Part shown: piece after piece, positions 8,928-11,438 of the stretch
Numbering within the stretch: position 1 is the stretch's first letter
Layout: each line of letters opens with the position of its first letter
Source of the DNA: Methylocella sp.
GTDB lineage: Bacteria > Pseudomonadota > Alphaproteobacteria > Rhizobiales > Beijerinckiaceae
Reading direction: 5' to 3'
NCBI GenBank assembly: GCA_037200525.1
Contig: JBBCGG010000001.1
Location: forward strand, 4,642,501 to 4,706,500
Length of the DNA: 64,000 nucleotides
Notes under the pieces: model-generated
What the model was told of the DNA's origin: nothing
Seen by the model: the letters and a program-made list of their open reading frames with translations, nothing else
The model's database searches: none
Translations under genes and position numbers: made by a program

Positions 8928-10217
8928 CTACTCAACCGGCTCGCTGGATGAGATCTCAATCCCAAAGCCGGAGAGGCCGACATAAGTCATTGGAGCCGAG
9001 GTGCGCAGCCGGATCGAGGAGATCCCAAGATCGCGAAGGATCTGGGCGCCGAGACCGACCTCTCGCCACGCCTTGGTCCGCTGCGACTCCGAATCAAAGG
9101 CCGGCGCGCCCGCGATGGTGACAGGAACGCCCGCCGTGCCATCGCGCAAATAGATAAAGACGCCGCGTCCGCTTTTCTTGAAAGAGGCCAAAGTCTTGCG
9201 AATGCTGTCGCCGCCGGTGATCACGTCGGCGATAATGTCGGCGCGATGCAGCCGCGTCGGCATATCGCGGCCATCGCCGATGTCGCCCTGCACAAAAGCG
9301 AAATGCTGAACTTGATCGAAGGGCGTGACATAGGCGTAACCTGTGAGCGGACCGCTCGGCCCTTGCACCGAAAATGTGTTGACGCGCTCGACTATTCTTT
9401 CGCGGGCTTGCCGATAGGCGATCAAATCCGCGACCGAGATCCGCTTCAAGCCATGCTCTTCCGCAAACACCTCGATCTGCGAGCCGGCCATCACCGTCCC
9501 ATCGTCATTAGCCAGTTCGCAAATGACGCCAACCGGAGGCAGCCCAGCTAACCGCACAAGATCGATCGCCGCTTCCGTATGGCCGGAACGCATCAGCACG
9601 CCGCCCTCTTTCGCGATGAGCGGAAAAACATGTCCGGGCCGAACGAAATCCGCAGCCCCCATATTGCCGTTGGCGAGCGCGCGGACCGTATTGCTGCGCT
9701 GTTCGGCGGAAATGCCGGTCGTCAGCCCATGTTTGGCGTCGATCGAGACCGTGAAAGCGGTCCCGTGCGGAGCGTCATTCATCGCGACCATCGGCTGAAG
9801 ATTGAGCCGCCGGGCGTCGGCCGCGGTAATTGGGGTGCAGACGATGCCGCAACAATTGCGAATGATGAAGGCCATCTTCTCCGGCGTGCAGAGGGAGGCG
9901 GCGCAGACGAGATCGCCCTCGTTCTCGCGATCGTCGTCATCGGTGACGATGACGATTTCTCCGTGCGCAATGGCCTCGATGGCCTGGGTGACTGAATTGG
10001 CCATTGCCGCAACCTCCATTGTTTTGCCGAGCTCGAGAAAGTCATTCGGCGTGACGGCTCCGCTGGTCTCGCGCAAAATCTGCTGCGCCGTCTCGCGCGA
10101 AACCCAGGCGTCATCCTGATTGCAGAACTGCGAAATAGACCCTTTCGATAGGCCGACCCTGCGCGCAAAATCCGCGCGGCTGACATTGTTCCGCTTCAGC
10201 CAATCACCAAGTTTCAT
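8928..10217 (-). CDS. ribB: HTH - DHBP synthase (RibB) - GCHII-like fusion
   Basis: Riboflavin synthesis enzyme making 3,4-dihydroxy-2-butanone 4-phosphate from ribulose 5-phosphate. Three parts: a Cro/XRE-like helix-turn-helix (about 1-66; [19 protein letters not shown]), a RibB domain (about 75-275; [11 protein letters not shown], acid/metal site, and [10 protein letters not shown]), and a C-terminal GTP cyclohydrolase II-like domain (about 285-429). The last lacks the zinc cysteine cluster and catalytic residues of true RibA, so it resembles RibBX proteins without GCHII activity. The N-terminal HTH implies DNA binding; two dyads lie in its promoter. 429 aa. Confidence 0.85.
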
Positions 10218-10245
10218 GCGAAGATCCGCGTGTGTTTACCCGCGT

Positions 10246-10274
10246 GATATGGGCGTCCTGGTGCGTTTAGTCAA
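10246..10274 (-). promoter_or_regulatory. Candidate sigma70-type promoter of HTH-ribB
   Basis: On the minus strand TTGACT (10274-10269) and CATATC (10251-10246) are separated by exactly 17 nt, 29 nt before the ATG at 10217. The -35 hexamer lies inside the dyad at 10265-10281, so a protein bound there would block RNA polymerase. Confidence 0.5.
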
Positions 10275-10281
10275 ACTAAAC
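10265..10281. promoter_or_regulatory. Candidate operator 1, GTTT-N9-AAAC
   Basis: GTTTAGTCAAACTAAAC is a near-perfect 17-bp dyad (GTTTAGT/ACTAAAC arms). It overlaps the -35 hexamer of HTH-ribB. Likely target of the HTH domain encoded by that gene, by position. Confidence 0.5.
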
Positions 10282-10298
10282 GAACTCTATTCCCCGCT

Positions 10299-10315
10299 GT
10301 TTGGCAGCACTAAAC
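10299..10315. promoter_or_regulatory. Candidate operator 2, GTTT-N9-AAAC
   Basis: GTTTGGCAGCACTAAAC repeats the GTTT-N9-AAAC layout of operator 1, including a full ACTAAAC half-site, with starts 34 bp apart (about three helical turns). It lies between HTH-ribB and the end of aroC. Confidence 0.42.
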
Positions 10316-10322
10316 ATGGCTT

Positions 10323-11438
10323 TTACCCGGTGAACGGCCATTCTCGGCCTTCGCCGATCTGGCCGCGATGGCGCAAAAACTGGTCGGCGAGTACGCAGGC
10401 GACCATGGCCTCGCCGACGGGAACGGCCCTGATGCCAACGCACGGATCATGGCGCCCCTTGGTGACGATCTCCGTTTCGGCGCCGGTGCGATCGATGGTC
10501 AGGCGTGGTTGCAGGATCGAGGAGGTCGGCTTCACCGCAAAGCGCGCAACAATCGGCTGACCCGTCGAAATGCCGCCCAAAATGCCGCCTGCATGGTTCG
10601 ATAAAAACAAGGGCGCGCCGTCATTGCCAAAGCGCATTTCATCGGCGTTGGCCTCGCCGGAAAGTTCCGCACTGGCGAACCCCTCGCCGATTTCGACGCC
10701 CTTCACCGCATTGATCGACATTAAGGCGCTGGCTAACTCAGCATCGAGCTTGCCATAAATCGGCGCCCCCCACCCGGCGGGCGCATTTTCCGCCACGATT
10801 TCGATCACCGCGCCAATCGAAGAACCAGCTTTGCGCACCCCGTCGAGGTAGCCTTCAAAAAATGCCGCCGCCTTGGCGTCGGGGCAAAAGAACGGATTTC
10901 TGGCGCATTCGTCCCAGTCCCAATTGGCTCGATCAATTTTATGCGGACCAATCTGAACCAACGCACCGCGAATCAGAACGCCGGGAATAATCTTTCGCGC
11001 AACGGCCCCAGCGGCGACGCGGGTCGCCGTCTCGCGGGCGGAAGCGCGGCCGCCGCCGCGATGATCGCGAACGCCATATTTGACGTCATAGGTGAAATCG
11101 GCGTGGCCCGGCCGATAGACGTCCTTGATCGCGTCGTAATCCTTCGAGCGCTGATCCGTATTCTCGATCACCAGCGCAATCGGCGTCCCCGTGGTCACCT
11201 GATGGCCGCTTTTTGCGTCGAGAAACACGCCGGACAGAATTTTGACCCGGTCCGCCTCCTGCCGCTGCGTGGTGAATCGATTGAGACCCGGGCGGCGGCG
11301 CTCAAGAAACGTCTGGATCTCCTCCTCGGTGAGTTCGATCAAGGGCGGGCAACCATCGACGACGCAGCCGATCGCAGGCCCATGGCTTTCGCCAAAGGTC
11401 GTCACGCGGAAAAGGTGGCCAAAGCTATTATGCGACAT
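10323..11438 (-). CDS. aroC: Chorismate synthase
   Basis: Converts 5-enolpyruvylshikimate 3-phosphate to chorismate, the last shikimate step; needs reduced FMN. The 371-aa protein shows the family signatures GESHGPAIG near the N-terminus, [10 protein letters not shown] and [18 protein letters not shown], and GGISTGQPI toward the C-terminus. Full length. Same strand as smpB and dapA upstream and HTH-ribB downstream; the FMN requirement gives a loose link to the riboflavin gene next door. Confidence 0.95.

Follow-up and report, generated by a model that had tools for sequence, protein, structure and literature searches.

A likely negative feedback on ribB by an HTH-RibB fusion protein with predicted paired operators in its own promoter

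According to our analysis, a ribB gene in a 64,000-nucleotide stretch of Methylocella sp. DNA (this whole stretch is called the window below) encodes a helix-turn-helix (HTH) domain and a DHBP synthase (RibB) in one polypeptide, and it is likely that this enzyme-repressor fusion negatively autoregulates its own gene; we infer both the binding and its sign from sequence comparison. The initial annotation had claimed two matched 17-bp dyads of the form GTTT-N9-AAAC, with starts 34 bp apart, in the promoter of this gene, and both can be read directly from the sequence. It had also suggested that the adjacent HTH reads the dyads and represses its own gene, and this idea gains support from the conservation of the dyads together with the HTH, from co-variation of the predicted recognition helix with the dyad letters, and from the near-single-copy character of the sites, all of them sequence evidence.

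We propose that the dimeric RibB core, assumed to be a dimer by analogy with known RibB enzymes, would hold two HTH domains together, and that these two domains would bind the 17-bp dyad covering the -35 region of the gene's own promoter, with a second dimer on the dyad 34 bp upstream and a probable cooperation of the two sites. The bound protein would block RNA polymerase, and the enzyme would in this way limit its own synthesis. Repression is the suggested sign since the dyad overlaps the -35, and a metabolite of the pathway may change the binding to the operator.

The fusion protein and its promoter

The fusion is a minus-strand open reading frame of 429 aa (8928..10217), as shown by the frame itself and by domain profiles, and we presume it to be both an enzyme and the repressor of its own gene. 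Its first 65 residues (10023..10217, minus strand) are assigned to an HTH by Pfam HTH_3, by predicted helices at residues 3-10, 14-21, 25-33 and 41-50, and by Foldseek. HTH_3 scores 24.4 bits (cut-off 23) for a 72-aa piece and 20.3, below the cut-off, in the whole protein, and there are weak profile matches to Cro and HipB. With a mean pLDDT of 64.5 the model of the whole protein's structure was poor, and the HTH part alone was used; Foldseek relates it to Cro/C1-type proteins with TM of about 0.6 and probability 1.00, with no E-value below 0.001. The N-terminal domain is predicted to be an HTH of the Cro/C1 (XRE) type whose helix 3, residues 25-33 in the structure models (10145..10119, minus strand), is the putative recognition helix.

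The DHBP synthase domain (aa 78-268; 9414..9986, minus strand) is matched by PF00926 with 272.7 bits and by TIGR00506 ribB above its cut-off, and has a loop of 10 residues which is conserved across 21 aligned proteins. The C-terminal part (aa 281-424; 8946..9377, minus strand) is a degenerate, RibX-like domain of GTP cyclohydrolase II type (PF00925, 78.8 bits); it scores 24.1 against TIGR00505 ribA, whose cut-off is 205.85, and when aligned with the RibBA chain 4i14 it has no counterpart to that chain's cysteine motif. Pfam and NCBIfam find only RibB and RibA-like domains in the frame and no riboflavin kinase domain. This degenerate domain (8946-9377) is also the single PF00925 match of the whole genome, and canonical GTP cyclohydrolase II was found neither there nor in 9 further genomes of the 13 searched. 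PMC9478397 describes, for Sinorhizobium, a formamidase route whose first enzyme is unknown.

Both dyads lie in the 105-bp gap between the stop codon of aroC (10323, minus strand) and the ATG (10217) of the minus-strand frame 10217..8928. The predicted proximal operator (10265..10281; GTTTAGTCAAACTAAAC on the plus strand) is a perfect 17-bp dyad of 7-3-7 layout which overlaps the predicted -35, and the predicted distal operator (10299..10315; GTTTGGCAGCACTAAAC on the plus strand) is an imperfect 17-bp dyad with one core mismatch. They start at -64 and -98 from the start codon, so that on the gene's strand the distal one begins 34 bp upstream of the proximal one. GTTT-N9-AAAC matches twice in the 64-kb window, both times in this promoter, with a mean of 0.58 matches in the shuffled window and two or more matches anywhere in 10 of 100 shuffles. 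With 0-1 mismatch to GTTTAG-N5-CTAAAC the two dyads are the sole matches in the whole 5.24-Mb genome, where the distal dyad is the second-best site. At 2 mismatches there are 40 further places, 42 in total vs 246 for the reversed-pattern control, and these we regard as noise, rejecting a wider regulon in this genome.

The letters of a TTGACT-17-CATATC promoter with the first dyad over its -35 hexamer, another element of the initial annotation, are indeed present on the gene's strand. The predicted -35, TTGACT (10269..10274, minus strand), lies inside the proximal dyad and is backed by the sequence and by the aligned fused loci; the predicted -10, CATATC (10246..10251, minus strand), follows after 17 nt and is backed by the sequence and by a weak TA preference in relatives. 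A generic sigma-70 consensus scan called no promoter in 10180-10400 at its thresholds, because CATATC is a poor -10. When the 74 loci whose site falls between -45 and -38 are aligned by the dyad, TT(T/G)ACT appears at the 3' half of the dyad, ACT being also dyad letters, and a weak TA preference appears about 17 nt further on. This weak -10 register stands 8 to 12 nt ahead of the start codon, and the fused ribB mRNAs of many relatives may therefore be leaderless.

In named loci that have aroC upstream on the same strand, the gap to the start of the ribB frame or domain does not exceed 50 bp in 24 of 33 non-fused loci (negative values among these are alignment artefacts) vs none of 19 fused ones. 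It follows that non-fused ribB may often be read together with aroC; fused ribB would have room for a promoter of its own.

Conservation of the dyads with the HTH

Homologues were searched in 289 genomes of the class, 298 of the family and 397 of the order, and upstream regions were taken for part of the matches. Among the first 119 loci, judged by the best match within 200 bp to GTTTAGTNNNACTAAAC, a search pattern of 14 fixed bases, 44 of 76 fused loci stay within 3 mismatches and 68 of 76 within 4; the latter level was reached by none of the 15 non-fused loci of the family and by 2 of the 23 of the class. The literal GTTT-N9-AAAC of the initial annotation is present upstream of 12 of the 75 fused genes; 10 of these 12 belong to the window's genus, which has 11 fused loci in the set. 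It is largely a genus-level form, and the wider conserved core is TTnAG-N5-CTnAA.

A symmetric score, drawn up after inspection of the first locus set, reaches 15 or more within 130 bp in 36 of 36 named fused loci vs 0 of 42 named non-fused ones, and in about 1% of shuffles. From the 80 named loci L191 and L192 were left out (partial, and another HTH type). Of the 36 named fused promoters, 13 were already in the first set in identical form, and the 23 new ones all pass. If 400 bp are searched instead of 130 bp, 1 of the 42 named non-fused loci passes, the position of the start codon in genes without the HTH being approximate. Counted as distinct fused promoters, 123 of 129 score at least 15 and 128 of 129 at least 14.

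In the joint tree set the dyad is found upstream of 135 of the 141 RibB genes with this HTH vs 1 of the 68 without it, with duplicate promoters counted, with 400 bp searched for the genes without this HTH and 130 bp for the fused ones, and with the class-level non-fused loci L008-L031 scored separately in the mismatch comparison above. The 68 include three RibB genes with other HTHs (L106, L111, L161); the rows L083 (N), L118-L121 (copies of other loci) and, in the mismatch comparison, L024 (N) were left out. Six of the 141 fused loci fall below the score threshold, L069 clearly so. Phylogenetic footprinting, which had been proposed as a check, thus speaks for the operators. On the best tree the state of the HTH changes at least 27 times, mostly on weak branches. 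Few independent pairs have branch support; in these 5, dyad and HTH agree in 4.7 on average, and no pair shows them opposed (p 0.06).

Three loci of the window's genus (L101, L103, L104) have a RibB without the HTH and no dyad, with 7 mismatches at best, in what is apparently a joint loss of both; L101 and L104 lie near contig ends. G444, also of this genus, and the Beijerinckiaceae MAG USCa_AHI have identical promoters. Fused genes occur in records named Beijerinckiaceae, Microvirga, Chelatococcus, Bosea, Methylobacterium and Labrys, as well as Xanthobacter, Ancylobacter, Pseudovibrio, Labrenzia and Roseibium.

The position of the sites varies among the relatives. Of 105 fused loci, 51 have the start of their best dyad at -39 to -44 relative to the start codon, 23 at -67 to -70, 12 at -24 to -26 and 8 at -78 or -79. 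Most loci thus keep the dyad near -41 or -68, but in many it lies upstream of the -35 or at -24, and the overlap with the -35 is not universal. A second site with a score of at least 14 is present in 40 of these 105 loci (the best-site rate in shuffles is 3.5%), and in 35 of the 40 it lies 26-43 bp from the first; the pair is thus common and not universal, and the spacing of 34 bp is not fixed.

Helix-operator co-variation, targets and the sign of control

Among the 99 loci with a score of at least 15, Lys at position 25 of the window's protein goes with an outer G of the dyad in 13 of 13 cases vs 4 of 86 for other residues, and Ala or Gly at position 30 goes with C as base 4 in all 30 loci. 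Where position 30 is Gln or His (69 loci), base 4 is not C in 56, is C in 6, and differs between the halves in 7. Both halves of the dyad change together between clades, and family f180, a divergent clade in which positions 25 and 27 are Gln and Arg, has mostly TATTAGC half-sites. On the tree, an average of 3.6 out of 4 supported pairs agree with the link of position 30 to base 4 and none runs the opposite way (p 0.125); in 6 supported pairs which differ in base 4, residue 30 goes along in 3.8 and shows no difference in 2.2. The link of Lys25 to the outer G is one single change on the tree and therefore has no statistical weight. We take positions 25 and 30 to be residues 28 and 33 by the numbering of the 434 repressor, where they would read base pairs 1 and 4.

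The regulator looks single-target by its sequence pattern, because in 40 chosen fused genomes the exact core pattern TTYAGTNNNACTRAA matched the ribB promoter in 28, as assigned by comparing coordinates with the homologue searches, and only 5 other places in total, vs 24 matches for the reversed control in the same genomes; the remaining 12 genomes have no exact match at ribB. Two relatives of the window's genus carry the same dyad, TTCAGTCAGACTAAA, away from ribB (G411:C83:57547 and G429:C3:410698), which is either chance or a second target.

The main rival to negative autoregulation is that the fused HTH, once on the dyads, switches ribB on, or acts either way depending on a ligand. In many relatives the strongest dyad stands some 67 to 79 bp before the start codon, on the upstream side of the predicted -35, as would suit an activator, and there is a precedent in the separate XRE-type proteins wBmxR1 and wBmxR2, which, according to PMC3518464, bind the ribA (ribBA) promoter of Wolbachia and activate it. 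Against this, the window and 51 of 105 fused loci have the best dyad over the -35 (-39 to -44 or equivalent), which is the place of a repressor, and a positive autoregulation of an enzyme gene would presumably be unusual; we consider activation rather unlikely.

It would be more unlikely still, to a degree that we call it improbable, that the dyads serve a separate, stand-alone regulator as its operator while the fused HTH has another role. Sequence as such cannot tell which protein binds, but the presence of the dyad tracks the fused HTH on the tree, its letters track the recognition helix of this HTH, and if the regulator served other genes, more sites would be expected than the near-single target found; on these three grounds we rejected this candidate as the reader of the dyads. 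Hardly any weight goes to the last reading, in which the dyads are chance or a by-product of the promoter sequence. The 3' half of the proximal dyad does coincide with a -35-like hexamer, but the distal sites lie outside the hexamers, the two halves change in step from clade to clade, RibB genes without the HTH have no dyads (1 of 68), and the rarity of a score of 15 in shuffles, together with the uniqueness of the matches in window and genome, led us to reject chance dyads.

We put forward, tentatively and as the less probable view, that HTH-RibBX proteins are ligand-gated sensors of riboflavin feedback, and that at least three HTH types, each with its own operators, were fused to RibB independently, with the control invented repeatedly. 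The dead cyclohydrolase domain or the RibB site might then read GTP, a flavin or ribulose 5-phosphate and set the affinity for the operator, and the protein might stand in for an FMN riboswitch. No FMN riboswitch (RF00050) was found in the window or in its genome, and control of this kind was rejected here. A match exceeded the cut-off in 2 of 72 genomes searched (71 of the family), G305 (L163) and G310 (L164), both probably without this HTH going by homologue-search scores; the fused G330 (L165) has a weak match below the cut-off. Such riboswitches are rare both with and without the HTH, and their rarity therefore gives no sign of one replacing the other.

As to other HTH types, compared by BLASTP with the HTH of the window (HTH-A), HTH-B gave no hit and HTH-C an E-value of 1.3. 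HTH-B-RibB occurs in 7 family genomes (L286-L292; genera g238 and g230); L293 was dismissed as an eighth, its open frame having only 230 aa and looking unrelated to RibB. HTH-C-RibB comes from another family, where 1 genome out of 2 has it (L294); this third HTH type on RibB (L294, and L161) is known from that one genome only. Upstream of the HTH-C gene there is a perfect dyad of 7-3-7 layout, GTTGCCAAAATGGCAAC, which begins 36 bp ahead of the start codon, and the two HTH-B genes of g230 have dyads of CTTGCG..CGCAAG type with repeats 39-43 bp apart. HTH-B genes of g238 have a pair of similar imperfect repeats about 34 bp apart, whose dyad symmetry alone (5-6 of 7 pairs) is not above the rest of the upstream region. 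Small as the numbers are, this suggests that a fusion of RibB to an HTH with its own dyads was invented repeatedly.

Relation to known systems and significance

BirA and PutA act on operons or on divergent genes, and their ligands or redox signals are known. The HTH-RibB fusion resembles them in joining a DNA-binding and a metabolic enzyme domain in one polypeptide, and in having a predicted operator in the promoter of a pathway gene which is linked to the HTH across genomes; it differs from them in that its target looks like its own gene alone. The wider class of such trigger enzymes, in which a metabolic enzyme with a DNA-binding domain represses the genes of its own pathway, is outlined in PMC6978683.

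As in the Cro/C1-type phage repressors, of which the 434 repressor is an example, an HTH of this class is found with paired dyads over a promoter, and positions of the recognition helix track operator bases 1 and 4; unlike there, the gene is a bacterial metabolic one, the HTH is fused to an enzyme, and no lysogeny function is involved. The archaeal RbkR is an HTH-riboflavin kinase which regulates rib genes. It shares with the protein described here the fusion of an HTH to an enzyme of the flavin pathway, but the enzyme is another one, with no kinase domain in the window's fusion. RibBX was reportedly described by Brutinel and co-workers as a DHBP synthase with a degenerate RibA-like domain, and genomes with RibBX reportedly also carry a separate active RibA. 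Our protein has the same combination of RibB with a GTP-cyclohydrolase-II-like domain without the metal-binding cysteine motif; to this the window's fusion adds the N-terminal HTH and the predicted promoter operators, and its genome, unlike those of RibBX, has no separate RibA, the only PF00925 match being the fusion frame itself. With wBmxR1 and wBmxR2 it has in common an XRE-type HTH which acts, in our case by prediction, at the promoter of a RibBA-type gene, but those are separate, unfused regulators with reported activation (PMC3518464). Feedback control of bacterial riboflavin genes by the FMN riboswitch is described in PMC12542839; it is RNA-based, and no such element was found in this genome. 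No description of the HTH-RibB fusion or of its operator was found in the titles and abstract beginnings of the open-licence literature; the literature covered being open-licence only, the novelty of the fusion is to be read as 'not found there', not as proven.

The fused set is a natural series of paired changes in repressor and operator, and the contacts of one HTH can therefore be read from sequence. If our reading of the fusion is true, it would mean a protein-based control of vitamin B2 synthesis in many Hyphomicrobiales, and knowledge of the HTH-RibB control could aid flavin production in methylotrophs.
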